Below, in pieces: positions 4,957-64,000 of a stretch of DNA of 64,000 nt. Positions within the stretch are counted from its first letter, which is position 1. Each line of letters begins with the position of its first letter. Location of the stretch: positions 3,534,001-3,598,000 of the forward strand of contig NC_089443.1 in the NCBI RefSeq assembly GCF_026210795.1, given 5' to 3'. The stretch is from Rhizophagus irregularis. Taxonomy: Eukaryota > Glomeromycota > Glomeromycetes > Glomerales > Glomeraceae. Made by a program: the position numbers and the translations under genes. The notes below the pieces were generated by a model that was given only the letters and a program-made list of their open reading frames with translations, made no database searches and was not told where the DNA came from.

Positions 4957-7886
4957 TTTGACAGGGTTATACATAAGAAAAGTTGGTATCGTAAGTGAGT
5001 AAAGTGAAAGGAGGATAAAGGGAAGGACAAATGAAATGAAGATTATGTAAATCTAATTCATCGCTTATTCGCTTATGAAGGTTCGAGACGTAGAAACCCA
5101 ATTTGGAATGATTACACGCGAAATTATGTATAGAATCTATAAAGACCTTCACTGATCATATTTCTCATATTAAAATAATAGATCACATATTCTATGACGG
5201 TAATTAAATTTATAATCCAAGATTTATAATAATAAGATAAATTAATAGATTATCAATAAAATTTGTTCATTACGATTCTCCGAAGTTTAATCACGTGACA
5301 AATCCCAATAATGTTCATTGGTCCGAAGACGGCCGTTCTTTTAATTTTTTTTTTTTTTGACAGCAATCTATAAATTAGAGATTTACTTTAATTAACTCCA
5401 GCCGGTTAAAAACAGGTTTAAATAGCCCGCACAATTGTTTGATATATTTATGCATGTAAAAAAAAAAAATTTCAACCCCACATTTGGCCATCTCTAAAAT
5501 GTACTGTATACCTTTTTCTGTTTTTCTCGGAATAAAAAAAGCATGAGGAATACTTCTATAAAATATCATACACAAAGTAAATATTCTCCAAGTAGCTAAA
5601 AACCGCTTTTTCAAGATTAAACTGGTTTACGGAAATTTTAAATTTGGAAATCGTCTATCATTAGGTAATAATTTGCCGAATATATTCTTTTTCACTTTCG
5701 TAGCTTCTCATATGTAAATACCTGGAAATAAAATATCTATATTCAAAATCTTCACTCCTCAGTAATAATGATAAGTATTACATCTTTTACAATACGTTAT
5801 TCTTTAAAATTAAACTCCTATAGTTCTGCTGTACTATCTGCGTTATAAAAAAAATATATTTCTTATTACAGTAATACGAAAGCATCTTTTCTTACATTAC
5901 CTATTACTAAATTGTCTTTTTACCCAACTTCTTCAAACTTTATTCGTAATAGTCCGCAGGAACAAAGAACTTAAACAAAGAAAAGTCATACTCACGAAAA
6001 TGTATCGTTCTTGACCTGTGCGACGGTCTGACTTGACCCGCATAATATATTTTACAATAAGGGGGATCAGGATGATGCTACTGGGAGGGTCAGGTCCGAT
6101 ACTTTTGCCACACGCACGCGCACACACAAGTTACAACGTGTTTTTATTTCCACTTGTAATTTCCGAAGGATGCGCCTACATCTTTTTTTTTTAAAGGGTA
6201 ATGAAAATAAAGCCATTGTAAGTTACTAGTATATAACACACGTGATTTGTTAGTTTGGCCCGAATTATAGCAAAGTTAGTAAATACGGTATACAGTATAT
6301 ATAGTTTGCTAAAAATATATTTAATGATTATATAATATAAAGGAATTTATAAAGTTTCAACCTATATAAAAATAGTATTAAGTTTTTTTTTTTGAAAAAA
6401 AAAAATTCATATAAAAAATTTATTATTATACTACTAGTACTTATTGCTATTTTTAATTGTTATGTGATTTTTGTATTAAAAATGTGAGTCATCTTCTTAT
6501 ATATATATATATATATTTTTAAGATTTAAGATTAAATATATATATATATATATTATGCAATTATATTAATATTTTACAAATTAAATAATTTTTTCTTTCT
6601 TATTAAAATTGAATTATTGAATGGTAAGATAATTGCAAAAAACTCTTTCAATAAATAAATGATTATTATATATAATTTTTTTAAAAAAATGTAATATTAC
6701 CAATAAGATATATAGTGTCACCTGATTTATAGGATTTCCATTCCTAATCAGGTGACGTTTTTTCATAAAATTCTAAGGAAATATTTTTTTATTATAATTA
6801 TGGACAGAAAAATATTAAAAATACTATAAATAAAAAATTATTAAAAAATGACTATTTTTAGTAACTTAAATTTACTTTAGTATAATAATTTAATTAGGTA
6901 ATATAATTTTAAAATATATCAAAAATTTTAATATTTATTTTCAATTATTATTATTTTCAACTATTTTTTTAATAAATCTGCTTTTAATTAATAGTTTATT
7001 AATTTTAAAGATATTTATTTATTAGCATTTTAGCGTTGTGCAATTCCAGAAGGTATTGGAAAAAAATGGATAACTAACAGTGTTAGCAGAACTTCAAACA
7101 GATAAATTTGTACAAGGGAGTTATTGTTTCAAATTCCTCTTCGCTTTAAAAGCATTTCAAAAGAAATGTTATAGTGCATGTCATGACATTAGGCTAGTTC
7201 GATTAATTTGGTATAAAATTTTTCTAATTATATGCCGGTTAACCCTGTATCATATTTATCGTATTGTAGTCGATTGATTATTTAGAAGTTTCTAATTCTT
7301 ACTATATAAAAAAAATTTCCAAATTGTAAAAAATAACGTAAATATAACCTTTAACAAGTATGTTTAAACCGAACTTTCCTTTTACCTTTACCGTTAAAGT
7401 AAATAATAGTTAGGTGGTTTGAAAAATTTTTGTAGTTAAACTTTGTATAATAAAAATAGTAAGGAGGTAATGTTTGTAACAATAACTTGGTTAGTTATAT
7501 TAGTGTTTTGTTTGTTTTGCACAACCGATTATTTCTTCTATATGTTTTTTCTATCGATATTTATTTATTTTTAATAAACTCTTTTACTTATTTGAGGAAT
7601 AAGAAGCTAATATATTTTCCCTGTTATTTTATTTATTTTACATATTATTTGGACAACCTTACTTTTTTTCCGAATCTGTTTGACCATTTGTTTCCGAATG
7701 TCAGATACAAAAAATTATTAAGCTTGCAAACACCAGTTTGTAAAATATAGCACAAAAATATCAGAAAAATTTTAACTTTCCTAACGATCAAAAAAAAAAA
7801 AAAAATTTTATTTAAATAATGAGACTTGCTATTTTACGGATCATGACGCTGAAAAAATTACAATAGCCAAACCAGAAGGAATAACA
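4957..7886. other. Divergent intergenic region between CDK and RING genes
   Basis: Presumed head-to-head upstream regions of the two genes. It holds (AT)n runs at about 6498-6552, a short hairpin at about 6718-6757 (GTCACCTGATT ... AATCAGGTGAC) and many homopolymers. Short frames at 5375-5614, 5933-6127, 7080-7277 and 7487-7750 show no family resemblance and were not called. Confidence 0.5.
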
Positions 7887-49625: not shown

Positions 49626-51107
49626 TAGTGCTCCAAAAAAAATCTGATCTGATCTGGATCCGCAGATTTGATCCGAGTCAGATCCGGTTCAGTTTTCAAA
49701 ATTCTGATCCGTAGATCAGATCAGATTTAAAAAAATCTGATCCGATCAATTTCAGATCGGATCAGATCATAACACAAGAAAATCTGATCCGATCTGAACA
49801 GATTCGGATCAGATTTTTTTTTAAATAAAAAAAAATTTTTTTTTTAAAAAACTTTTCCTGGACGAACGGACGGAAGCCGGACAACCAAGATTTAAAAGAA
49901 CGAACTAGATAAGTTCATTTCTTTTTTTTGTTTTTTTTACTTGAGGGAACGTAATTAACGGTCCCCTTCTTTTTTAGTAGGAAGCCTGGACGAACGAAGC
50001 CTAATGACACGACCAGGATTTAAAAAAATAAACGATCTATGGTAGGTTCGTTCCTTTTTTTTATTTTTTATTTTTTATTTAAGGGAACGTAATTAACGTT
50101 CCCTTTCTTTTTTTTTTAGGAAACCTGGACGTGAGACGAAGGAATGATCAGGATTTAAGAGAACGAACTATAGTAAGTTCATTTCTTTTATTTTATTTTA
50201 TTTTTTTTACTTAAAGGAACGTAATTAATGTTCCCTTTCTTTTTTTTTAGGAAACCTAGACGTGAGACGAAGGAATGACCAGGATTTAAGAGAACGAACT
50301 ATAGTAAGTTCGTTTATTTTATTTTATTTTTTTTTTTACTTAAGGGAACGTAATTAACGTTCCCTTTCTTTTTTTAGGAAACCTGGACGTGAGACGAAGG
50401 AACGATCAGGATTTAAGAGAACGAACTATGGTAAGTTCGTTTCTTTTATTTTATTTTATTTTATTTTTACTTAAAGGAACGTAATTAACGTTCCCTTTCT
50501 TTTTTTTAGGAAACCTGAACGTGAGACGAAGCTGAACGACCAGAATCTAAAAAAAAGAATGAACTATGGTAAGTTCGTTTCTTTTTTTATTTTTTTTTAT
50601 TTTTACTTAAGGGAACATACTAATTAACGTTCCCTTTCTTTTTTTTATGGAAACCTGGACATGAGACGAAGCTGAACGACCAGGATTCAAAAAAAAGAAC
50701 GAACTATGGTAAGTTCGTTTCTTTTTTTTGTTTTTTTTTATTTTTACTTAAGAGAATGTACTAATTAACGTTCCCTTTCTTTTTTTTAGGAAACCTAGAC
50801 GTGAGACGAAGCTGAACAACCAGGATTCAAAAAAGAACGAACTATCGGTAAATTCGTTTTTTTTGTTTTTTTTTTTTCTTTTTACTTAGGAACGTAATTA
50901 ACGTTCCCTTCCTTTTTTTAGGACAGGACCAGATCCGAACCAGATTCGGATCAGATTCAAATCGGATTCAAATGGATCCGAACCAGATTCAGATCAAATT
51001 GAACCAGATCTGATCAGATTCAGATCAGATTAGATCTATTAAAATAAAAATCAGATCGGATCAGATTTAAGCTGAATCCGGTCTGAACCGATCTGTTAGG
51101 AGCACTA
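49626..51107. mobile_element. 1,482-bp hAT-like non-autonomous element
   Basis: It begins TAGTGCTCC and ends GGAGCACTA (perfect 9-bp terminal inverted repeat). TTTGCAAG is directly duplicated at 49618-49625 and 51108-51115, the 8-bp duplication expected of hAT elements. Subterminal regions are dense in GATCTGATC/GATCAGATC motifs in both orientations, as for hAT transposase subterminal sites. The interior is a minisatellite; no transposase. Confidence 0.85.
49850..50925. repeat. Minisatellite of ~115-140 bp units (8 copies)
   Basis: Units start near 49857, 49986, 50126, 50255, 50381, 50516, 50657 and 50786 with AACCTGGACGTGAGACGAAG-type sequence. They continue with GAACGAACTATGGTAAGTTC and a poly-T/A tract, and end with the near-palindrome GGGAACGTAATTAACGTTCC. 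Confidence 0.88.
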
Positions 51108-51656
51108 TTTGCAAGTATAAAGAAGAGAATAAATTTTTTATTTTGAGAAAAAATTATAAAACGTATATTACCAAATATTGTAAATTGTTATACAATATTT
51201 CAGATTAGTATATAAGATAAATATTAAATTTTATATACAATTTTACCTTATTATTTACTGAAACATTTGTAAACTTATATTTAATTTTACCTTATAAAAC
51301 CGAAAACCTATTTTAACTTTACCTTACATATCTGGAGACCTTTATTTGTTATATATATAATTTTACCTTTATCTATTAAGAGACCTAAAATTTTTTTTTA
51401 ATGTAAATTTTACCTTATATTTTTGGAGACCTCTATTAAAAGTAAGCGGAATTCTGTTTTTACATGTAAAATCAAAAAGAAAAATGCTAAAACTAATAAT
51501 TCTAGCATTTTTACATGTAAAATTAAAAAAAAAATGCTAAAACTAATAGTTTCAGCATTTTTACATGTAAAATCAAAAAGGAAAATACCAGAACTAATAA
51601 TTCCGGCATTTTTACATATAAAATCAAAAAAAAATGCTGAAACTACTTTGCTATCA

Positions 51657-52873
51657 GTGGTGATTTTTTTGGTAGTATTTTATAATGCTTTTTAAATAAT
51701 ATTAATAGGAATTTTTGGCATATCATGTAAATATCATATTTAATAATATATATATGTATAAATCTATTAACAAGTATGATATTTAATATTAATATTGTAA
51801 CTAATATAAAAGGATAATTGTCATATATTACAAAATTATTATTTTTTTACTTTTTTTTTTTTTTTCTGCAATGCATTTGATAGTTTATTAAACAGAAAAC
51901 AAGATTCAGAGAATACAATTATGACAAAAACTAAATCTAAACTATCTAATATTATTAACTACCAAACCACTCGTCATGCATGAAAGCACCCCACATGTGC
52001 ACTGTCAGATGAAATTTTTGCTTAGAGAGTATGATTCGTTTTAAAACGGTTGATAGCATAAATGCCCCTTTTTCTTATGAAGCATTAACGGGACCCACTA
52101 CATTGCAAATAAAAAAGAAAAAAAAACTTTAAAATGTAAGTAAGAAAATGTATAAAATAGAAGATATCCTTCAGATCGTTCCTCTTAAAAGCGGCCCAAA
52201 GAAATTGAAAAAGAGTGGTATTCATTATCCAAGCCATAGGGTCTAAGGTACACACAATTAAACCAGAACTGGCCAGCTGTAGTGAAAATGACATGTTTCC
52301 AATTCTTTAGGTCAACTAGTGTGAGGCCCCATTTACTGATAGAAGGTTGCTTGTCATATATAAAGGCGGACTCTAACATCGGATGTCCATTATCACGGTA
52401 TTAGTTCTGGAACACTATTATCTGCCAACCAATATTAATTCTAATCAACCATCCCAAGTAAGCTCTATCCAAAATAAAGTTGTTTAAACGAAAACTAAAA
52501 CTAATACTAATTCTAAAAAATAAACAAAAAAATTGATAAACAAAAGAAAAAAAAGAAGAGAATAAAAAGAAAAAATATGTCTGGGATTCATAAAGCCAAT
52601 TTTTGTCTCTATTCTTCTTCCTCCGAAGTGTGTAGGTACAGTCGAAGATGAGGTCTAAAGCATTTATCAAAGGTTGTTTAAAGAGAAACTAAATTTGGTT
52701 AGTTTCACAATATCGGTAAAAGTATATACCGAACGTTATACCAAAAAAGCTGGTAAAATTCCAAAAGCAGTTGTCTGTTCTGTAAGTTTTCCCAAAATGA
52801 AAGTTGTCTTCTGAATCATTTGTTGTTATTTGTAGGTGGGCCGGCAAGTTGCGGAAGGTATCCAGAAACGCAT
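51657..52873 (-). pseudogene. Possible degenerate coding region
   Basis: From about 52085 to 52670 the minus strand holds several overlapping short frames with protein-like composition (for example SKWGLTLVDLKNWKHVIFTT and the adjacent-frame segment LDPMAWIMNTTLFQFLW). No single frame is continuous, and I recognise no family. It may be a decayed gene together with the frame at 52874-53260, or chance in slightly less AT-rich DNA. Confidence 0.25.
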
Positions 52874-53260
52874 TTAGTTTATGACATGATCTAATCTAAA
52901 TTCATTTGATGGTGACCTAATCGGGAGTCTTGTGACTTGATGAATAGGAAACGCCAGCGGGTATTTATAAACAATGGGCGTCGAAGAAGGTGTAGAAAAA
53001 GGTAAAGGTGTATATAGGTCATATCGTTCGAGTAGACTAGTTAAAGTCTCCCAGAGATAGTCTTGTGTATGGTGCTTAAGTCGTTGTGGAGCTGTCTCGT
53101 GCTTCTTGATAGCTTGTTTCAGTATCTTGAAGAAGGAGGGCCTATTGGTATATAGAAAGTTGTTATGGAGAAAATCCACAAAGTCTTTGTTATTAAGGAG
53201 TTCATTAGTTGCTGTTGTTCCAAGTTTGCTTATTCTGGGTGATACGCCTCTCCAGACCAT
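52874..53260 (-). CDS. Hypothetical protein, 128 codons, possibly a fragment
   Basis: An uninterrupted frame with balanced composition (TNELLNNKDFVDFLHNNF, LKQAIKKHETAPQRLKHH, DYLWETLTSLLERYDLYT). It is predicted mostly helical and soluble, with a Pro/Ser-rich C-terminal third. I do not recognise it. It could be one exon of a larger decayed gene continuing to the left. Confidence 0.35.
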   Translation of the reverse strand: MVWRGVSPRISKLGTTATNELLNNKDFVDFLHNNFLYTNRPSFFKILKQAIKKHETAPQRLKHHTQDYLWETLTSLLERYDLYTPLPFSTPSSTPIVYKYPLAFPIHQVTRLPIRSPSNEFRLDHVIN

Positions 53261-53491
53261 CTTTAGTCCAAGAACACCACAAAGAGAGAAAAAACGCGTA
53301 AAGAATAGGAATAAAAGAAAAAAAACAAAAGAAAATTTCTAATACTAAAATAAACTACAGTGGGTTTTTTGCTATCAAGTATTTACTTGAAGTATATGAA
53401 ATAAAATAAAAGTGTATTAACTATAAGCGAAGTAAAGAAAAAATAAAAAATAAAAGTTTTGTTATTGAAAAAATATGGTCCAGACAAGCCG

Positions 53492-53531
53492 TTTATGACT
53501 AAATAATATAATTATATTATTTAGTCATAAA
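53492..53531. repeat. 40-nt perfect palindrome
   Basis: TTTATGACTAAATAATATAA joined to its exact reverse complement, with no loop. It can form a cruciform. It lies just where the DNA changes towards the higher-GC accessory block and may mark a boundary. Confidence 0.9.
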
Positions 53532-53564
53532 GAAACTTGCATTGGTTATTTAGTAATAAAATAA

Positions 53565-53700
53565 TCTAACTATAACTAAATAATCTAAGTATGACTATAA
53601 ATAATCTAAATATAACTAAATAATCTAAGTATTACTATAAATAATCTAAATATAACTAAATAATTTAAATATATCTAAATAATCTAAAGTTAATAACCTA
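53565..53700. repeat. ~37-bp tandem repeat
   Basis: TATAACTAAATAATCTAAGT alternates with ACTATAAATAATCTAAA for about four periods. The ACTAAATAA core also occurs in the adjacent palindrome. Confidence 0.75.
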
Positions 53701-54519
53701 AATATGATTAAATACTCTAACTAAATAACCTGTTTGTGACAATTTTGTATACCTAGTTATTTTTCTTACTATATTCCTTCCCTTTGAATCCGCTTTTCTT
53801 TAGCTTTTTCCCATTTATTATTTGTGATCATGTGATTAAATAACCTAAATATTACTGTTACTAAATAATTGAAATGTACCTATTTTTGTTTGGTTCTCTG
53901 CGCCAATAATCGTTTTCTAATATAATTTATGTTATTGGGGTTCTATGGTTGATTGGTTATTAAATTCTATGTTGGAGGTCCAGCCTGTCTGCAATTATTT
54001 GGATTCTAAGTTTTATGATGAAGTTTTTGCCATTCTGCACCTCTTTGGTTGCCTGTTAAGGATTCGAGGGTGCTTTTCTTCTTTACCTATTTTGTTGCCT
54101 GCCAGAATGCCGAAATATGGTAAAAAAAAATATCGTGTCGGGTGGCGCAGTAGATTATAGTAGATTAATTTCAGCTGGCACTATGTCTTAATTCTGGCTG
54201 ATCTTTAGGGCATATAATTCGGGATTCAGCTTGGCGCCATAGTAGTGACCTGATAGTATCCTGAAACTGTCATGGAACTGGCAGGGAACTGACAGGGGAT
54301 TACCATGGAAATGTTATGGAACTGGTAGTTTGCCAGCTTGGATGCCAAATTATTATGTCCAAAAGCCGATTTTATGGAATAGTACTGGCCAAAATTATGG
54401 AGCGAATCTTGACTGTGCCTACTGCTCTGGTCACGTGATTCTGTTACGGCACCGAACACCCTCTGTCATAATATAGCAAATTTAGTTATCTGGTTGTCAC
54501 TAGTTCCGTATATTATGGC
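53701..54519. other. Left part of the accessory block, no assigned gene
   Basis: GC rises visibly here. Two short frames exist (53945-54160 + and 54226-54459 -), but neither resembles a known protein, so neither is called. GTCACTAGT occurs once at 54496-54504. Confidence 0.45.
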
Positions 54520-54835
54520 CGGCCCATTTAATTGCCAGAAGTGCGCCGATTTTGTAATCCTATTTGTTGCCGGTTTATGTATGCCAACTTCGTGTCCCTA
54601 GTAAAAGTAAAGTTGTGGTCGAATTTATGGAATATTACGTCATCGAAATTGAACAAAAATCTATTGCGCCAAAAATAAGAATAAAATTTATCTAACTTTA
54701 ATATCGATTTTGGGTATTCTATTGGGCGTGCAATTTGTATTAGCTTGGCCAGCCCATTTGTTTGCTAAGAAGTACACCATCTTGTGGTCTAACTATTGCG
54801 CCAGTATATGTATGCCGATTTCGTGTGCCGAGATT
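54520..54835. repeat. Two ~80-bp imperfect direct repeats, ~227 bp apart
   Basis: GGCCGGCCCATTTAATTGCC with GTTGCCGGTTTATGTATGCC (about 54520-54600) recurs as GGCCAGCCCATTTGTTTGC with GCGCCAGTATATGTATGCCG (about 54747-54835). Function unknown; possibly duplicated regulatory sequence. Confidence 0.7.
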
Positions 54836-54925
54836 TGAATCATTAGAACGCATTTATATTATATTTTACCACATTTTCAGGCATATTAGGATATAAATTG
54901 GGACGATTTTTTGTTGTCATCGGCT

Positions 54926-55319
54926 GTCACTAGTGTCCTTTAGTTCCGAATACTAACTGGTGACAGAACTAGTGACAGCTTTGTTATCTTTCTTGAGATT
55001 ATTAGGCTATTTTATTTCTTTCTTGATTAGTGTCACTAGTGTCACTAGTAAAAGAATAATAAATTAGAAAAAAAAAAAATCAAATTTTTTCTATGCTACC
55101 TACTTTACACAAGATATATTATAATAAATGTATGCTATAAAAAAATAAAAAAAGTTAAGGAACTCAGATTTTTTCCAGTGACACTAGTGACACTAGTGAC
55201 ATCCATCAAGAAAGGTTTCTTTCAGCCTAGAATTCTTAAAGAGCCTATCGTTCGCGTCACTAGTTCTGTCACTGGCTTTTTTTTCTAGTGACACGATCCC
55301 TTTGGAATCCACTAGTGAC
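54926..55319. other. Iterated inverted-repeat region (candidate replication origin or element end)
   Basis: Eight exact copies of GTCACTAGT lie here: plus orientation at 54926, 55032, 55041 and 55256; minus orientation (ACTAGTGAC) at 54968, 55183, 55192 and 55311. A ninth is at 54496. Beyond the nonamers, the left arm (about 54940-55049) and right arm (about 55183-55290) are imperfect reverse complements, sharing ATCAAGAAAG, AGCCTA and GTCACTAGTTCTGTCAC in order. They flank an AT-rich core (55050-55182). The outermost motifs also pair (GTCACTAGTG / CACTAGTGAC). Iterons plus an AT-rich core resemble an origin. A MITE or fused inverted terminal repeats are the alternatives; no target duplication is visible. 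Confidence 0.7.
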
Positions 55320-55341
55320 AAGTTGTATTATTTTTGTTTAC

Positions 55342-55593
55342 CTATAAATTATTTACCAATAACTGCGTCGAAGCCAAGTTCGCCAGCTTGTTCCGATGGT
55401 ACTGTTCTTTTTTACGGTGCTTTCTAGCATGAATATCGCAAAATCCATATCTGCCATAAGTTAATTCACCGCATTCTTTGCAGGGTATCTGAGAAGGAGA
55501 ATTGCAGTGAATATGGCATCCCTTCGGATGGTAGCATCCCCGATTGCAAATCTTACCACTCCTATGAATATAAGTACATCGATAAAATACCAT
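55342..55593 (-). CDS. Small Cys/His-rich (zinc-binding) protein, 83 aa
   Basis: Two probable zinc modules are visible: CTYIHRSGKICNRGCYHPKG followed by CHIHC, and PCKECGELTYGRYGFCDIHA. A Lys/Arg/His-rich C-terminus (ARKHRKKEQYHRNK) suggests nucleic-acid binding. Intronless. It is transcribed away from the polymerase gene, its start 125 bp from the polymerase start. I do not recognise a named family. The spacing of Cys and His residues is the only functional clue. Confidence 0.65.
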   Translation of the reverse strand: MVFYRCTYIHRSGKICNRGCYHPKGCHIHCNSPSQIPCKECGELTYGRYGFCDIHARKHRKKEQYHRNKLANLASTQLLVNNL

Positions 55594-55718
55594 TTTTAAT
55601 AACTATGAATAGTCGGTTTATGTGTCGATTTATATATTTCGGAATTAATTTTCATTTTAAACTTATTTCTCCCGGAGTATATAGTTTCTCTCGAACTGTA
55701 TATTTGTGATATAATAAC
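55594..55718. promoter_or_regulatory. 125-bp divergent upstream region of the polymerase
   Basis: Separates the head-to-head zinc protein and DNA polymerase starts. AT-rich, with TATATATTTC near 55631 and GAGTATATAGTTTC near 55676 as possible TATA-like elements. Confidence 0.45.
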
Positions 55719-58700
55719 ATGACCCAATCCTCACTTTCAGAGTTCCTCTCCGACGCGCCCGCCCCTCTTCGCCCAGAGGTCGAAAAAGATAAAACATCAG
55801 GTCGGGTAATCAGATATGGAAGTGAGAATTACTTGTCGGGCCTTCCAACTCGTGATGAACTAGTTGCGAGAAACAATGGGGGCTCGACTTCAACTCTCAA
55901 TGACGAAATAGCGAACCATCGAGGTATTCCATTCATGCCAGTTGACATAGGAGAAGCTAAAGAATATTTTAATCAAATTCCTCATTATATTCTTCGCCTC
56001 TATGGGTATCTCGTCAATGGCTAGAAAGCAGTTGTCGCCATTACCGGTATCAAGGTATTTTTCGATATTCGTGTTCCCAGCAATACAAGTATCCCTAAAT
56101 TCTGGTCTAAAGTGAAGGGCATTCTTGCTACTGGGAAAGACAACGAGGGGAAGACCGTAAACATGAATCTAATCCAGATGGAATGTATAAAGGCATATCC
56201 TATTCGTGGATACTATGCAGAAAAAAAGCCATATCTTCGCATTGTCACACCTAATAAAGATCTAAGGTTCACCGCTCTCGATATTATCTCAAGCTACAAT
56301 TCAAAGGTTGATCCTGAATGTAAAATAGAGACAGCTTCAGACGATACAGGCACATATTATCGTAAAGTTGCGAGAGAGTATAGAATACCTTTTTCCGGGT
56401 GGGGATTAATAAGTGATTATAGATATAATTTCAGTGCACCTTATTATGCAAAATCCCAACATTGTCCACATGCATTTTATGTCCACATTGAAAACTTTCG
56501 TCCTATAGACAATTTTGAACCATTTTACAAAATATACCCATCTTCTCTCTTTACCTATGACCGAGCATTAGTCCTAACATGGGATATAGAAACATACGAC
56601 TCACGTGGGTCAGGAAACTTCCCAGAAGCTAAAAATGACACATCTCAAGTTTTTACGATCTGTATGACCCTGCATTGGAAAGATGATCTGATCCCCTTAG
56701 AGCGGATATGTTTAGTTGATGTAGAAACGGAACCAGACCCGCGCTGGATTACGATTATATGCGGAAACCAGACTAATATAATAAAGGCGTTCGCTTTATG
56801 TTGGAAAGCTTTTGCCCCAGACATCGAACTTGGATTTAATGATTCAGGATACGATTGGCCTTTCATTGTGGAAAAGGCCACCAAATTAAATGTTCTCGAG
56901 TGGATGGTCCAGCGAATGTCGGCAAACCCGCATAAGAAAGCTGATGCTGAATCTATCCTCACTTGGAATTATTTTGGCGGAAAAGGGAAGCCACTAACTA
57001 ATGGTTTCTTCCGAAGGGACCAGTACGTAAAGAAAGAGGACAGAGGTCCCAAAAAAGCGTTAGGACGGGAATCTATCAATATCAAAATCAATCCCTCTTT
57101 GACTTTCGAATCCTCTTTTCTTAAACTTCCGGGGTGTGTACCGATCGATGTTCGCGCAAGTTTTATGCAACTTCACCCCCGCTCTGAGAAAACATCACTA
57201 AAATACTTCTTAGAAAAATATGGTCTCGATGGTAAAGCCGATATGCCCATGAGCAAATTATGGAAGTATTATTCGGAAGCGAAAGACAGGGCTTCCGACT
57301 CTTCCAAAAAACATATGCATGAAATCGTAAATTATTGTGTTATAGATGCTTTACGTTGTCAGGAGCTCATGGTCAAATCTAATGTTATAAATGATTACAG
57401 AGAGGTGGCCTCAATCGCTCATATATCATTATTCGACTCACATTATTATGCTATAGGAACGAAAGTATCCAATCTCTTAGGCGCTGAAGCTTGGGCGCAG
57501 GACATTCTATACACCACGAAAATTTCCAATCAGAAAGCATCTGGGAAGTTTCCAGAAGCGTATGTGTTCCCGCCAGAAAAGGGTCTTGAAAATAAGCGTC
57601 CTGTCACTGGTTTAGACTTTAGATCCTTGTATCCTAGCATAATTATGACTTACAACCTCTCACCCGAGAAGATGGTCTCAACACTTTCGGAAGTAGATAA
57701 GTTAAAGAGAGAGAATAAAGTGCTTCACAGTATCGAGTTCAAGTATGGCGGTAAACCTGTGCGAGCCTGGACCATACGGCATGGAAATAAATCTGATCAG
57801 GAAGGTCTATTTACAAAAATATTGAAAAATCTGCTCAATATACGGAATGAATTAAAGGCCCAACTTAAAGTTCTCGGAAAGAAAAAGGAATATATGGGGA
57901 AAGTTAAAAGTAAAATGGATTCAGCTGGCGGATCTTTCCTGGTAGTGAACGCAATCAAAGATGTTTTATCCTCTGTAAAAAATACTGAGAGGCACGCAGA
58001 GATGACCAAGATCCTAAGTCCCTTTATTGTTCCGGAGGAGCGATCTGATGGAGCTGATTTATCATATGATGATTTTATGAAAAAATATAGTTCTATTTGT
58101 TTTGAATACAATTCTTTAAATTCGAAGCAGAAGGCGATTAAATTATATATGAATTCGTTCTATGGTGTGACCGGCCAAAGTGATTTCCCGTTCTATACAC
58201 TAGCACTTGCTGGGGGTGTTACTTCAGCTGGGCGAGAGAATATCAAATTCGTCGCAGAATTCGTGAAAAAGAAGGGCTTTGGGATAAAATACGGGGATAC
58301 TGATTCCCTATATCTCACTTGCCCAGATTCTTATTATGAGAAATGTGATCTGGCCTACAATAGCGGGAAAGGCACAATTTCGAAGCTAGAGTACTGGACC
58401 GAAATGGTCACAATTACTATGGGCGTAATGGAGAAATTGCGTAATGAAGTAAACAGTTTTCTTAGGCTGAAAACCAGATCGGGTTATCTCGAAATGGCTT
58501 ATGAAGAAGTGCTATTCCCAGTAGTCTTCACTGGGAAGAAAAAATATTTTGGCACCAAGCATGAAGATGCAGTAAACTTCGGTCTGAAGGATCCTTTCAT
58601 AAGAGGAATTGATACTGTGAAACAGGGCAAATCCCAGCTTTTTAAAACCATAGGTGAGCGGATTATGAGTGAAGTCAGGGATATCAACAACGAGCGCTCT

Positions 58701-59747
58701 CTCCATAAAATTGTTGAGGATGTTCTCAGAGATGCTATAATCTATCCCAACTAATGGAGTTTCGAGCAGTTTATAGAGACTGATGCATGGAAACCCGATA
58801 AAGACAACAAAGCCGTTCAGCGATTTATGGGACGAATGCAAGGGGAATATGATAGTAGGATTCCAGTGCCAGATGGACGCTTTAGTTATATAGTGGCCCA
58901 CCCCGAGACCACTTTTGATTTGCATGGCAGAAAGTTAAAACCAACTAAAGGCGAAAAAATGGAATTCGCCGATGTAGCTAAGGAATTGGGGAAGGAACTA
59001 GATTTATACCATTATTTCGAAAAAACTATTATTGGCCTCTGTGCCTGATTTATCATGTATGACAAGAAGTATGAGCCAGAACCCTCAAGTCGAATCATGC
59101 GAATCGAAGACCCAGATGAGAAATATAAGCAAATTGATGACTACGCTCAAAACAAGGCCAAGTCATGGCTTGAGGGATTCGTAAAAGAAAATATCATAGT
59201 CAATGGTGTTACTTCCAAGATGATGGAATCTCGTGAGATTGCTTACAAGCGTGCTTACAGAACTGCGGTCAAAAAGGCACAAGAAATGTTGTATCAAAAG
59301 ATAGGGTACTTATACGAAATATTTCATGGTGAATGGCTTAGCTACGAGATTTTCATGGTAAGTAACCCTATCGAGGTATTATGGGAGAAATTTATGAAAT
59401 GTGCTAGGAAAATTTCAAAAGATAAAAACCTCTCAGTAGATGACGAAATGAAGAAAAAAATATGCTCTGACTTTGCTCGATATCCTAGTGAGCTTGTAAA
59501 ATGCATTGAAGAGTATAATTTATTCTTTCACAAATTGGTCTATCATATGCGTTACAAAGAGCATGTATCAATTCCAGAAGAAATCGGCCCAGTTTCATCC
59601 ATGCGAAAAAATGAGATAATTGCTGACCTACCTGCCTTACCTCATATATCAGAAATTGGGGCATTAGACGACATTAATAATTTATGGTATTTCCATCTTG
59701 AGGATATAACTGGGTCAGAGGCGCTAGCAAAGTACTTAAATAGATAA
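55719..59747 (+). pseudogene. Family B DNA polymerase, one frame with three in-frame stops
   Basis: A single reading frame of 1,343 codons, intronless, interrupted by TAG (56022-56024), TAA (58752-58754) and TGA (59046-59048), with no frameshift over 4 kb. Protein-like sequence continues directly across each stop. Domains: N-terminal beta-rich region; 3'-5' exonuclease with DIET (Exo I, about 56583), [10 protein letters not shown] (Exo II, about 56835) and YCVIDA (Exo III, about 57335); polymerase motif [11 protein letters not shown] (about 57613), motif [10 protein letters not shown] (about 58138), motif C YGDTDS (about 58288); thumb and C-terminal helical region after 59055. The DIET and DFxSLYPSII forms fit replicative (delta-like, nucleo-cytoplasmic large DNA virus-like) polymerases better than protein-primed Polinton polymerases. 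The largest uninterrupted piece (56112-58754) holds every catalytic motif. Likely a recently inactivated gene of an integrated virus or large mobile element; readthrough is a less likely alternative. Confidence 0.88.
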
Positions 59748-60047
59748 TATTGTTAAGTACTCTTAACGGGGTGTGGTAATTCCGGCTAAGAATCCATACA
59801 ATATTATTTATATATATATTTTTTTCTCTTGCAATAATACCGGCTAACTTCAATTTTTATCTTCGAACTTCCGACCTCCGATCATATAGCCCGGCCACAG
59901 ATATGCCCGGAGATGATCATTAGTATTTTTCAGCCGGGGCCGGCCAATAACATGTGATATACTCCGTGGCTAAGGCCTATTTTTGCGAAGCGCCTTAACG
60001 GCTATTTTGGATCACTAGTGTTTTTAAACATAAGCTTTATTGGTATA
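59748..60047. other. Intergenic region after the polymerase
   Basis: Contains repeated CCGGCTAA and CCGG motifs, a small stem (TAAGGC ... GCCTTA, about 59971-59998) and a partial iteron TCACTAGTG at 60012. No gene seen. Confidence 0.4.
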
Positions 60048-60329
60048 ATGGCTGAACTACGTGACCAAGTTTCCCAGTACATAGACTTCGAACCTAACAA
60101 AATCCATTTCCCAATCACAGAAGATGATAGATGGTTATTTCGCAAAATAATAGCAGATCAGGAAGGGATGAGAGATATCGTAATGGATGACTATCAATAT
60201 TTACTACAACACGGTCATAATGGTAAGGGAGGTAACCGGATCTATATTGGATGGTTGTTTGCATGTACACTGGCCCAAGCTAAAAAGATATTAATAAATC
60301 CGCCCGAAGATTTATCAAAAAGGTATTAA
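60048..60329 (+). CDS. Hypothetical protein, 93 aa
   Basis: Starts MAELRDQVSQYIDFEPNK; an upstream in-frame ATG at 60018 would add ten hydrophobic residues but is less likely. Soluble alpha/beta-looking sequence (FPITEDDRWLFRKIIADQ, YQYLLQHGHNGKGGNRIY). No recognised domain. After the TAA an open stretch of about 20 codons rich in Lys continues in the -1 frame (KKVLSPHPKKIQKFARA), entered at an A5 run. That may be a damaged C-terminus or chance. Confidence 0.55.
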   Translation: MAELRDQVSQYIDFEPNKIHFPITEDDRWLFRKIIADQEGMRDIVMDDYQYLLQHGHNGKGGNRIYIGWLFACTLAQAKKILINPPEDLSKRY

Positions 60330-60457
60330 GCCCACATCCAAAGAAGATTCAGAAGTTCGCTCGCGCCAGTACTTATACGGTAGTCGATTAGATATTGAGA
60401 TAATAAATATCCGGCCTATTTATATATTTTTCGTATGTGAAATATCGGTCATTTTTT

Positions 60458-61353
60458 TTATTCATACTCCATGGATTCCACCATTTCCTGACTACGAGCC
60501 ATATAACCACAATCAGTAGTAAGGCAAGCATGGAATATGTTATCATCGGCAACATTAGAGAACTCGCAACGACAGGAATAGCCGGTGCTAGAGATATTTC
60601 TTAGGACAATGGTACTGCTTCTGCGCCACCCGATTCCAAAGGAATCCCCTCACTCGAAATTATTTGGGACGAAGTATTTTTCTTTAACGCTAACTGGTCC
60701 TTGAGGGACCTATTTTCCTCCATTAATTTTAATCGTTCTGAAGACCGGCTATCTATTTCCTATTTGAATATATTATTTGACGACTCTATCCCCTTTTCCA
60801 TACATTCTATTGTATATTCTTTCGAATTACGGTCCTCCTTCGCATGTTCCAATTCAAGCCTGAGAGATTCTATTTCGGATGAGCTTATTTGGGCCGGCTC
60901 CCCTCCCATTGCATCCAAATCATGATATGTGCGCTCTAGATCTATGTCCTCCAACTTACCTTCCAATTCACGTATTTTAGTTTCAAGAGAAAGAATCTGG
61001 ACTTTGTCAGCGAACGAAGCTTTCTGGGCCAAAGTTGCCTCTCTCTTTAGCGTTTTAATATTTGATTTGAGTGATTTGACTTCGGCTTCGAGTTCAATAC
61101 GGGACCTCCGTTCAGAAATAAGTTGGGATCTAACTTTAGCGCTAGACGCATTTAACTGGCTAATCTTATTTCCAATATCCTCCTCTCGCTCTGAATACTC
61201 CAAATTTTCAGCCTGTAACTTTTCATTGAAGTCGATAATTTCAGAGTTAAAATCGATAGCAGTTCTTATTTTTTTTTCGAGCTCTTGCTCATATGTACTA
61301 CCCAGCCGATGTCTTCTATTTTTTATATCTTTCAATGTATGCACATTGGACAT
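60458..61353 (-). pseudogene. Coiled-coil protein with Cys-rich tail, interrupted
   Basis: The main frame (61353 to TAG at 60762-60760) encodes 197 residues, nearly all heptad-patterned coiled coil (LEAEVKSLKSNIKTLKREAT, LSLETKIRELEGKLEDIDLE). The same frame continues after the TAG to 60601 with more heptads (ERLKLMEENRSLKDQLALKK). In the -1 frame the region 60458-60600 encodes a Cys-rich segment ending in stop (YSCRCEFSN, then FHACLTTDCGYMARS), which looks like a zinc-binding C-terminus of the same protein. I infer one original gene of about 290 codons damaged by one nonsense and one -1 change. Function unknown; structural or scaffold roles are possible. Confidence 0.55.
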
Positions 61354-61616
61354 AATCTTGGCATGGTTATATAGCAGGAAAAAAATGCGCGTAACTAAAT
61401 TTCATCTATAGGGCATTTTTTATTTTTTCTTGTCAAAATAAAATATCAAATATTCTTTATTGAGAAACATCACTTTTCATCATTTTTTATCATTTTTCAT
61501 TGTTTTTTATTGTTCAAAAACCATAAATATTGTTTTTTATCGTTCAAAAAACATAAATATTGTTTTTTATATTTTTTTATCATTCTAAAATATTGCTAGA
61601 AATTACTGGAGGAATT
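61354..61616. promoter_or_regulatory. Divergent upstream region with ~41-bp repeats
   Basis: Separates the coiled-coil (-) and HTH-like (+) genes. It contains tandem ATTGTTTTTTATCGTTCAAA-type units (about 61499-61570) and CATTTTTCATC repeats. Confidence 0.5.
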
Positions 61617-62141
61617 ATGCCTAGCCGATTTTTAAAAACTCATTATCGACGAGGTGCTAGTGTTTTAACGCCTGAGCAGATCGAAGAAATTAGATGCCTT
61701 AAAAATAAGGTTCCTGCGTATATGATAGTAAGGAACTACCATATTAATAAAGATCGCGTCTCCGATATATGGGACGATTGTGAACGTCTACAACAGAGTG
61801 GGGAATATGTATTAGCAGATATGTTACCGGAGCCATCAAACCATGACGATATAGTTCACTTTAAGAATGATCCTTTAGGTCCTCTAAATATTTCCTCAGA
61901 GAATCACGGTGAATGTGACATCATTTCCGATAGCAAGAAAAAAAAGACTGGAGGAAAGAAGTCGAAGTCTAATTCCACGTTAGCTTTGTCAGCATCATCT
62001 ATTGAGACTCAACCAATCCCAGCTTCAAAGAAGGATACAAACAATATGGATGCATTGTATGAGAAGATGATCGAAAAAAGCACAAAAATTTTAGATGAAA
62101 AAAAGAAGCGTTATCCTGAAAATAACTTGCCTATTCCCTAA
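61617..62141 (+). CDS. HTH-like protein, 174 aa
   Basis: Start ATG at 61617 (MPSRFLKTHYRRGASVLTPE); no ATG lies upstream in this frame. Residues about 15-60 (LTPEQIEEIRCLKNKVPAYM, IVRNYHINKDRVSDIWDDCE) read as a helix-turn-helix of the homeodomain-like transposase/resolvase type. The rest is a disordered Ser/Lys-rich linker with a basic cluster (KKKKTGGKKSKS) and a C-terminal helix (ALYEKMIEKSTKILDEKKKR). Likely DNA-binding; target unknown. Its last 11 bp overlap the tail of the convergent protease frame. Confidence 0.6.
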   Translation: MPSRFLKTHYRRGASVLTPEQIEEIRCLKNKVPAYMIVRNYHINKDRVSDIWDDCERLQQSGEYVLADMLPEPSNHDDIVHFKNDPLGPLNISSENHGECDIISDSKKKKTGGKKSKSNSTLALSASSIETQPIPASKKDTNNMDALYEKMIEKSTKILDEKKKRYPENNLPIP

Positions 62142-63029
62142 GAAGACTTTCGCAAAACTCATTGATTTCTGAATTATACTTAAGAGTGCTATATAGCATT
62201 TTTTCAAGTTCCTTATAACTCACTTTTTTTTTAATGTACCATCTTCGCTTAAATCTTGTGAAATGCAGTCTGGAGTTGACAGATCATCACATTCAGAAGT
62301 AGTGGTCACACAATTCACCTCAAGCTTGTTCTTGACCTTATGCATAGTGACCGGGATAATATAGTCCTTCCCATTAAGAGGGATCTTTAGCTCATTTGTA
62401 TTCCAATCCACTGCGCATCCATATTTCTTTAGGAGTTGATTAGAAAATATTAGCGTTGGCTTGTGATAATCCACAACTACAAAATCTTTATAAATGATGC
62501 ACCCAGGAGCTAGAGTAATGGGCAGATTGCGGACAATACCAATAGATTCAATCGGGACAGTAGCTACACCGCTAAGGTCATGTTTTTCAGATTTATCTAT
62601 TTTGTCCTTAGTACGATCAACAATGTTTTTCGTTATAATTGGAGGCTCAGCTCCGGAGTCTAGAGTCATGGCTGGAATCTTCAAGCGCCCGATTTTGCAC
62701 TTTATAGTGGCAACACTGGTTTTCGGCTCCTTCTTCTTGACGAAGTCAATCTCCATAGGATCATCTAAAGACTCCTCTTCCAGACTGGACTCATCCGAAT
62801 CTTTTGAAGATGATGATACATCATTTTGGGATACTATCTTTGCCTCCGTAGAAGCCACTATCTGTTTGGACGCAATGAGACCAGAATCTTGAAAAAAATG
62901 TGGGGGGAAGATTAGTTTAAGCTCACTATGAAGGACTTTACGAATAGTCTCCTCTAGTGGTATTTCTCTCAGCTTGGCACTAGACATCTCTTTAGAGGAT
63001 AATTTCTCGGATTCACTCCTCTTCTTCAC
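62131..63029 (-). CDS. Retropepsin-like aspartic protease region
   Basis: The frame 63029-62220 encodes a Ser/Glu-rich leader, then a retropepsin-like domain: VATIKCKIGRLKIPAMTLDS, with catalytic Asp in DSGAE, then VVVDYHKPTLIFSNQLLKKY and AVDWNTNELKIP. No ATG opens it; it begins inside the A9 run at the end of the zinc-knuckle frame, so it is most simply the -1 continuation of that frame. It stops at TGA (62222-62220), directly after another A AAA AAG heptamer. The -1 frame there continues 30 codons to TAG at 62131. No reverse transcriptase, RNase H or integrase follows. Cleavage of the gag-like protein is inference from family knowledge. Confidence 0.72.
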
Positions 63030-63415
63030 TTTTTTTTTGTCTTGGCAATATTAACAGTAATATCGCCTCCAGAATCGGAAGAATCATCTGAACTTGAATT
63101 AGAATCAGAACTATCGTTAGATGAGGTATTGGAAGAAGAATCTGAATCTGGTTCTATAGCGAGATTAACCTTACCCTTTTTAGACTTCTTACTTTTCTTT
63201 TTCTTCTTTACAGAGCACTTACGAGAAGTGTGTCCAAATCTACCGCACTTAGAACATTTCTTAATGACACTTTTAACGGCGGATTTGATAGCATTTATTG
63301 TGGCACTATTTAGTGTCATGCCAGCCATACTGTCAGTAATATCATCCACAGGATCATAATTATAATCATCGCTAGGGGCTACGCTACCTTTCCCTCTTAA
63401 TAGTTCACTTAAAAA
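63026..63415 (-). CDS. CCHC zinc-knuckle (nucleocapsid-like) region
   Basis: The frame enters from the gag-like frame at the T5 run (63411-63415), reading FLSELLRGKGSVAPSDDYN. The centre has the knuckle CSKCGRFGHTSRKC (C-x2-C-x4-H-x4-C), followed by a Lys-rich stretch and a long Ser/Asp-rich acidic tail. No ATG is found near the expected start. It ends at TGA 63028-63026, immediately after A AAA AAG. Typical of nucleocapsid parts of LTR-retrotransposon gag. Function inferred as RNA/DNA binding. Confidence 0.75.
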   Translation of the reverse strand, partial: FLSELLRGKGSVAPSDDYNYDPVDDITDSMAGMTLNSATINAIKSAVKSVIKKCSKCGRFGHTSRKCSVKKKKKSKKSKKGKVNLAIEPDSDSSSNTSSNDSSDSNSSSDDSSDSGGDITVNIAKTKKK

Positions 63416-64000
63416 TCGTCTAATAATAAGGTCTTCCCTCTCTTATTGGCCGATTTTTTACTATTATCTAGAGTCTTAGTTGCTCGAGACATAGTCTCTT
63501 GAAAGGATTTAGCTATGGCTTCTTGTAAATCAGCCTTAGTGATATTTTCCTGACTAGAAGAAGATACCGGTGATAGATTTGGCACCGATTGTTGTAACGC
63601 CTGAATCCTACTATTTACAATCCTATCAATATCTTCTGTAGTAATATTCTGGTGGGCAGGCGCTTTTGGTTTTGTCTTGGTAATTGGCTGGTTATAAATA
63701 TCCTCACCCAGAAGCAAATTATTCCTTTCTGTTTCAATCTCTTCCAGTGTCTCAATCAATTCATCATTTAAAGGTCTGTTTAAACCCAGTCGTTTCATTT
63801 CCAGCTTGTTTTCAGGAGTCAAGCCACGTATAAATTGTATTCTTTTTTCACGATCAGATATTCGAGCCCAGCTAGCATATTTATTTATCTTTCTATAGTA
63901 ATTTCTAACTGAATCAGATCCTTGAGTCAAAGTGCCAAAGATCAATTCCTGTTGCGTTCTCGAACAACTGTAGGATAATTCCTTTTAAACCAATAGATGA
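63409..64000 (-). pseudogene. Retrotransposon gag (capsid-like) fragment, runs off the window
   Basis: Clear gag core: QQELIFGTLTQGSDSVRNYY, RKINKYASWARISDREKRIQ, FIRGLTPENKLEMKRLGL, then EEIETERNNLLL. The frame 63945-63409 ends at TAA in a T5 run. Upstream it meets TAA at 63987, whereas another frame reads WFKRNYPTVVRE, which fits gag; another -1 change near 63955 would join them. The N-terminus lies beyond the right edge. Either a degraded retroelement or a gag relative captured by the neighbouring element. Confidence 0.75.

Follow-up and report, generated by a model that had tools for sequence, protein, structure and literature searches.

What kind of genetic unit brings a giant-virus-type DNA polymerase together with a retroelement-like Gag and protease in the genome of an arbuscular mycorrhizal fungus? 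The question arose at the end of a 64,000-nt stretch of the Rhizophagus irregularis assembly (G000 genome, C15:3534001-3598000; hereafter "the window"), for which a preliminary description had left three origins open: an integrated large DNA virus, a Polinton-like replicon with a polymerase that is not protein-primed, or two unrelated insertions side by side. Reading on through the following 29 kb (pieces L084-L086), we found that the block in question is the left end of one integrated, partly decayed mobile element of 38,280 bp (C15:3587487-3625766), whose first 10.5 kb occupy window positions 53487-64000. The block had been recognized correctly, including its higher GC content (37.4% versus 25.2% in the remaining window), but it begins at 53487 and not at 53492. 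Probably, arbuscular mycorrhizal fungi harbor in it a self-replicating DNA element of Polinton-like type that has exchanged its polymerase and in which Gag and a retropepsin are likely to stand in for the capsid and the cysteine protease. The second of the three origins was therefore close to right, given the terminal inverted repeats (TIRs), 5-bp target-site duplication (TSD), rve integrase, A32-type ATPase and D5-like primase-helicase described below.

The left boundary of the element consists of the following features:

53482..53486, unstranded: left TSD copy, AGACA; the right copy is at C15:3625767-3625771
53487..55764, unstranded: left TIR, 97.3% identical over 2290 columns to C15:3625766-3623482 (L086:7766-5482)
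53487..53536, unstranded: left terminal palindrome; the last 5 nt of its inner arm deviate from the 50-bp form
53559..53730, plus strand: AT-rich direct repeats ("iterons") with a 40-nt unit, beside the terminal palindrome
55018..55214, unstranded: inverted repeat of the GTGTCACTAGTGTCACTAGT motif, with arms at 55018-55049 and 55183-55214

By blastn, the first 2.28 kb of the block recur inverted at the right end, giving a TIR length of ~2.3 kb. The element is present in many copies in the genome. The polymerase gave 76 genome matches that we collapsed by hand to 34 loci. Twelve copies had two ends that could be located, and 11 of these 12 are flanked by a perfect 5-bp duplication; when the left flank of one copy was set against the right flank of another, 0 of 132 comparisons matched. 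The unit, its ends and its target duplications are thereby demonstrated, and a large integrated virus is unsupported as the source of the window copy, which is 38 kb long with ends of its own.

The same ends recur from copy to copy. A 50-bp palindrome, AGCCGTTTATGACTAAATAATATAATTATATTATTTAGTCATAAACGGCT, or a form of it with up to 5 mismatches, terminates 11 of the 12 copies, and the twelfth (C8 at 1659 kb) ends in another palindrome, of 33 nt, that likewise starts with AG. In the window's element and in the C21 copy, one end is perfect and the other has 5 mismatches; in the window's element the perfect one is the right end. Allowing up to 3 mismatches, the palindrome was found at 27 places in 146.7 Mb, compared with 0 for a control read backwards, and 18 of the 27 form nine pairs (paired by eye) that each enclose a PolB locus. 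Thirteen of the 27 are perfect and 14 are changed. In three of the changed ones (both ends of the C5 copy, and C7) the changes are mirrored double changes that leave the palindrome perfect, as would be expected if ends are copied through a hairpin or if symmetry is selected for. The iteron region named in the preliminary description does contain repeats; it is not a separate region, being the outer part of the 2.3-kb TIR, and by eye the iterons look like an arm of the terminal palindrome. Tyrosine-recombinase-like open reading frames (ORFs), recognized by motif and by eye, lie near the D5-like gene at L099:3897-5168 (C21 copy) and L086:983-2169, and thereby near one palindromic end; they could encode a telomere resolvase or a second recombinase. 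For L099:3897-5168 there was no tyrosine-recombinase Pfam match to E 0.5, and its second half had no PDB match to E 5.

The genes of the block likewise behave as a set. Within the window, they are:

55342..55602, minus strand: 86-aa cysteine/histidine-rich (Zn) protein gene, inside the TIR, with an inverted second copy in the other TIR
55719..59747, plus strand: asfarvirus-like family B DNA polymerase in four pieces, with stops at 56022-56024, 58752-58754 and 59046-59048
60048..60329, plus strand: p123, next after the polymerase, a small conserved protein with no known function
60760..61353, minus strand: coiled-coil protein, whose homologues extend to ~60397; a stop cuts the window copy
61617..62141, plus strand: helix-turn-helix (HTH)-like basic protein, whose occurrence is the least regular in the block
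62220..63050, minus strand: retropepsin ORF with a DSGA active-site motif, assigned from Pfam and predicted fold
62224..62232, minus strand: A9 run followed by GTGA where the protease ORF ends, a possible -1 slip site by sequence
63026..63442, minus strand: C-terminal part of Gag with a CCHC zinc knuckle, frame offset from gag
63030..63038, minus strand: A9 run, likewise followed by GTGA, at the junction of CCHC and protease, again a possible -1 slip site by sequence
63409..63984, minus strand: capsid-like part of Gag, continuing beyond the window at L084:2-697

Every gene type that had been named at the outset is thus present: the polymerase (PF00136/PF03104), the small zinc protein, the coiled coil, the HTH-like protein (the HTH was read from an alignment, and no Pfam family matched), and gag, CCHC and retropepsin. 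Other genomic copies had been suggested as a check, and in them the genes do recur in the same order with PolB, each at 17 to 27 of the 34 loci, the HTH gene being less regular (14 genome matches). On the same strand as PolB we found p123 within 9 kb (22/34 loci, all) and the integrase within 30 kb (27/34, all). On the opposite strand were the coiled coil within 9 kb (27/34, all), the protease within 12 kb (26/34, all; chance ~0.17, computed from the 31 entered protease places) and D5 within 95 kb (17/34, 16 opposite and 1 same). The Zn gene lies just outside PolB at 17 of 34 loci, always on the opposite strand; at 19 of 34 it is found beyond the other side of PolB, at a distance of 20-100 kb (17 same strand, 2 opposite). 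These counts rest on entered matches (p123 26/26, coiled coil 32/46, protease 31/140, integrase 31/150, Zn 42/123, D5 26/116) that were picked for their strength or for their closeness to PolB. Reverse counts therefore lean to co-location, and the forward counts over PolB loci are the more trustworthy. The genome search scores the best candidates alone, which makes all recurrence counts lower bounds. Database gene models also fuse the polymerase to p123 (P0044, P0095) and the protease to the coiled coil (P0156, P0210, P0240), and a length of 7,635 bp for the contig behind one polymerase match and one protease match suggests that these are the same contig.

The demonstrated gene order bears directly on the idea of two unrelated adjacent insertions, a viral polymerase block beside a decayed Gypsy gag. 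Gag, CCHC and retropepsin are indeed retroelement-like, and the module had been expected to prove an independent retroelement if it were bounded by long terminal repeats (LTRs) and occurred apart from the polymerase. Neither was borne out. The protease keeps its order and strand near PolB at 26 of 34 loci against the chance figure given above, a recurrence by which we rejected an independent Gypsy insertion, and TIRs and TSD enclose both parts. A blastn comparison of window positions 50001-64000 with L084-L086 matched solely the TIR/right-flank part of L086, and no direct repeat resembling an LTR was shared between the window block and these pieces. The largest direct repeats within 52800-64000 are at most 45 nt (20 largest of 45 families; internal repeats of L084-L085 lie outside this comparison). 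As had been stated, there is no reverse transcriptase: no [YF]xDD[LIMVT]-type motif was found in the six frames of the element, and no reverse transcriptase family in the Pfam scans. Two chance neighbors are, on this evidence, scarcely credible. The integrase, by contrast, had been thought lacking because of the window edge; an rve integrase starts at L084:1748 on the plus strand, 1.7 kb beyond the window end.

Where does the polymerase come from? The longest piece (56025-58751) matched PF00136 (E 5.7e-38) and PF03104 (E 1.6e-13) in Pfam and had no match to PF03175, the protein-primed family, at E 0.1. Its nearest solved structures are 8ywg, 9l8u and 9l8t (559-561 bits; the next group scored 72), which we take to be the African swine fever virus (ASFV) polymerase. 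By these sequence comparisons, the polymerase is classed as asfarvirus-like and not protein-primed. Three in-frame stops break it in the window copy. The 232-aa ORF at 59049-59747 was considered as a separate gene and rejected, as relatives show it to be the C-terminal part of PolB. The polymerase piece is 100% identical over 98% of its length to a protein of Rhizophagus irregularis DAOM 181602=DAOM 197198, and the named-organism matches listed (the best 120 each of 303 for PolB, and of 269 and 186 in two further searches) are from Rhizophagus or other arbuscular mycorrhizal fungi. Placing the polymerase in a family B tree had been proposed, and a 39-row tree (quick method, midpoint root) went part of the way: the window piece groups with R. 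clarus P0005, the fungal polymerases form three groups, one of which has as its sister a clade of longer polymerases (jgi, lgn, ena), and contig L001, which is asfar-like, forms a long branch as outgroup. No relative turned up in IMG/VR when it was scanned with the PolB sequence, with the protease alignment or with the integrase, and a scan with the PolB alignment gave distant PolBs alone (22-48%, 53 loci). Part of P0055-P0120 are polymerases of mostly ~1400-1580 aa, ~40% identical, on contigs up to 290 kb, and are possible relatives outside fungal genomes.

An asfar-like polymerase could mean that the block is a fragment of an endogenized giant virus. Zhao et al. 2023, in passages of that paper, report 15-33 giant-virus-type polB genes per strain, at strain-variable places and in viral regions, possibly of Asfarviridae origin, and read the scattered genes in this way (PMC10640383). 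The element shares its polymerase family with Asfarviridae and with the endogenous asfar-like region of R. irregularis strain 4401. That region spans 1.5 Mb according to the same passages (PMC10640383), compared with 38 kb here, and the element has an integrase, TIRs, a TSD, terminal palindromes and a recurring gene order. We scanned 29 of the 44 listed ORFs of L084-L086 with Pfam; neither among these nor among the scanned window ORFs was there a viral RNA polymerase, capping enzyme or VLTF3, whereas contig L001 by eye shows an RNA polymerase large subunit near PolB. Zhao et al. 2023 further report that a capsid gene, D5 and A32 went undetected in five strains (PMC10640383); unlike in that report, D5 and A32 were found in the element. 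The integrase near 27 of 34 polB loci indicates that many of these polB genes belong to a mobile element and are not scattered virus fossils, and we regard a giant-virus fragment as very improbable.

The Gag module was identified from several matches of differing strength. Gag matched PF03732 (E 3.9e-4) just below the Pfam cut-off, CCHC matched PF00098 (E 0.0019) and the protease reached E 0.009, both also below cut-off. The predicted fold of the protease, confident at residues ~110-238, gave Ddi1-type retroviral-protease-like domains as its first 29 PDB matches (E 2e-8), with HIV-1 protease next (E 1.6e-3). Beyond the window, Gag continues with an N-terminal capsid piece (L084:2-697) and a coiled coil (L084:763-1694), both on the minus strand. 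In the window copy gag and CCHC are in different frames, whereas relatives carry both in one protein, and we conclude that the window copy is decayed. Homologues of the separate coiled-coil protein (for example, P0240) end by eye in a hydrophobic, membrane-segment-like stretch; an anchored protein of this kind next to Gag may be a surface protein.

Search beyond 64 kb had been advised for capsid, ATPase and terminal repeats. It yielded the terminal repeats and an A32-type ATPase; in the window's element the latter is a sub-threshold fragment (E 0.006), and in the C6 copy it is above cut-off (Pox_A32, E 7.5e-6). No jelly-roll capsid was found among the Pfam-scanned ORFs (29 of the 44 listed for L084-L086, and ORFs of other copies), although Pfam may miss divergent ones, and the scans of L084-L086 contained no adenovirus-type (Ulp-type) cysteine protease. 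The integrase matched PF00665 above cut-off in the window's element (E 1.5e-9) and in the C3 copy (E 1.2e-8); in the latter its open frame is 552 aa, with no PDB relative by sequence to E 0.01. At L089:2400-3105 an integrase ORF runs on into a cysteine-rich, nuclease-like C-terminal domain (by eye; weak DUF4379 match). The D5-like primase-helicase of the window's element matched Pox_D5 (E 6.6e-7) and DUF5906 (E 7.2e-19), both above cut-off, and in the C21 copy it is one open 981-aa frame.

These genes permit a comparison with known systems. Mavericks across organisms are reportedly the subject of Haapa-Paananen 2014. According to passages of one source, Polintons are 10-40 kb long, and integrase and A32-type ATPase are common to Polintons, virophages and Polinton-like viruses (PMC10175614). 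The element resembles Polinton/Maverick elements in its size, TIRs, AG...CT termini, rve integrase, A32-type ATPase and possession of a family B polymerase. It differs in (i) the polymerase, asfar-like (PF00136/PF03104) instead of protein-primed, (ii) the TSD, 5 bp (11/12 copies) instead of the 6 bp given for vertebrate Mavericks in passages of PMC8097293, (iii) the ends, 50-bp palindromes instead of the short terminal repeats that those passages hold to serve jumping back in protein-primed replication, and (iv) Gag-CCHC-retropepsin, with no jelly-roll capsid or Ulp protease in the Pfam-scanned ORFs. By its polymerase type and the length of its target duplication, it is not a Polinton in the strict sense. 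With Ty3/Gypsy LTR retrotransposons it shares Gag, CCHC, retropepsin and rve integrase; it differs in having a DNA polymerase, a primase-helicase and TIRs, and no LTR or reverse transcriptase was found. We did not find an earlier description of a giant-virus-type polymerase, integrase and Gag/protease combined in one mobile element, and the top-ranked matches in the open-access PMC literature contained no description of a Gag/retropepsin in a Polinton or of such an element.

The integrase and ATPase common to these groups (PMC10175614) would also suit a satellite of the virophage type, with a polymerase acquired from an asfar-like giant virus and with reproduction confined to the factories of that virus; passages of PMC10640383 describe an endogenous asfar-like virus in strain 4401. 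Such a satellite is unlikely here, as no jelly-roll capsid was found and the element encodes its own polymerase and primase.

A second family in the same genome supports a Polinton-like element with an exchanged polymerase. In 9 kb of one copy on C3 (L115), we found a PF03175 protein-primed polymerase (E 2.1e-11), an rve integrase and a D5-like protein with DUF5906 and Pox_D5, all above cut-off, together with a 573-aa coiled-coil/Gag ORF (E 0.035), a CCHC ORF (0.0048) and a retropepsin-like ORF (0.0018), all below cut-offs. By blastp identity to copies of the window's family (integrase 42%, D5 37%, gag 36%, protease 33%), the two families have integrase, Gag, protease and primase-helicase in common, and what sets them apart is the polymerase. 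In the second family the integrase lies within 6 kb at 19 of 23 entered protease places, all 19 divergent. This family probably represents the Polintons of Glomus intraradices (= R. irregularis) reported, in passages of PMC7805220, to be without a detectable capsid gene. Polintons without a major capsid protein (MCP) that also lack protease and ATPase are read as concerted loss in passages of PMC4028283; the Gag module offers another reading. The window's element is like the MCP-less Polintons in host and, through L115 with its protein-primed polymerase and integrase, in related Gag, protease, integrase and D5; it differs in its polymerase, and the passages of PMC7805220 make no mention of a Gag module. 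Two further stretches of ~20 kb (C21:3106978-3128216 and C14:1690910-1711322) may be a third family: a distant Zn gene (36-39%) lies at each of their ends, and an integrase (42-48%) and a protease (32-36%) are close to one end or to both.

How might the element propagate? We infer that its asfarvirus-like PolB and D5-like primase-helicase would make a DNA copy. The palindromic ends would fold, or be resolved, as hairpins and so take the place of the protein-primed initiation used by true Polintons. Insertion of the DNA copy would be the work of the rve-type integrase, producing the 5-bp duplication, while Gag, CCHC and retropepsin would build and mature a protein shell in place of the jelly-roll capsid and Ulp-type protease, into which the A32-type ATPase may load DNA. 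More tentatively, the element could be a DNA virus-transposon whose DNA is enclosed in a shell of Gag type, the Polinton-like elements of R. irregularis having swapped jelly-roll capsid and cysteine protease for Gag-CCHC-retropepsin, after which one branch swapped its protein-primed polymerase for an asfar-like one with hairpin-forming palindromic ends; we consider this history possible and do not favor it at present.

Several observations count against a Polinton-like replicon of this kind. The two flanks of the copy at 1511 kb on C8 differ (GCATG/GCATA). Eleven of the 14 changed palindromes are asymmetric, which decay after insertion may explain. Simple hairpin copying does not, however, predict the pattern at C8:1511031/1556377, where the outer arms of the two palindromes carry a common change that is missing from both inner arms. 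The Gag capsid fold is based on sub-threshold Pfam matches and gene order, and the AlphaFold model of the Gag protein P0172 is poor (pTM 0.25) and not usable. RNA folding beside the A9 runs gave nothing beyond shuffles (z-scores -0.56 to 0.39). The coiled coil is absent nearby at 7 of 34 PolB loci and the protease at 8 of 34, and no free element DNA or particle is known.

The element also carries unknown genes and a cargo stretch with Crinkler domains, a kinase-like ORF and a leucine-rich-repeat ORF beyond the window. Two Crinkler N-terminal domains (PF20147, E 1.9e-28 and 7.2e-14) lie at L085:5227-6956 and 7407-7778 (C15:3613227-3615778), and another such ORF was seen by eye at L099:8942-9403 in the C21 copy; these are Crinkler genes as cargo of a mobile element in a symbiotic fungus. 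A 340-aa protein at L084:5212-6231, with no Pfam family above cut-off, has 127 genome matches.

For R. irregularis, the Gag module offers an answer to what its capsid-less Polintons use instead of a capsid, and the pair of element families shows relatives among which the polymerase has been exchanged. Should palindromic ends prove to accompany the asfar-like polymerase, and jump-back ends the protein-primed polymerase, the pair would be a testable case of linear DNA replicons changing how they start replication.

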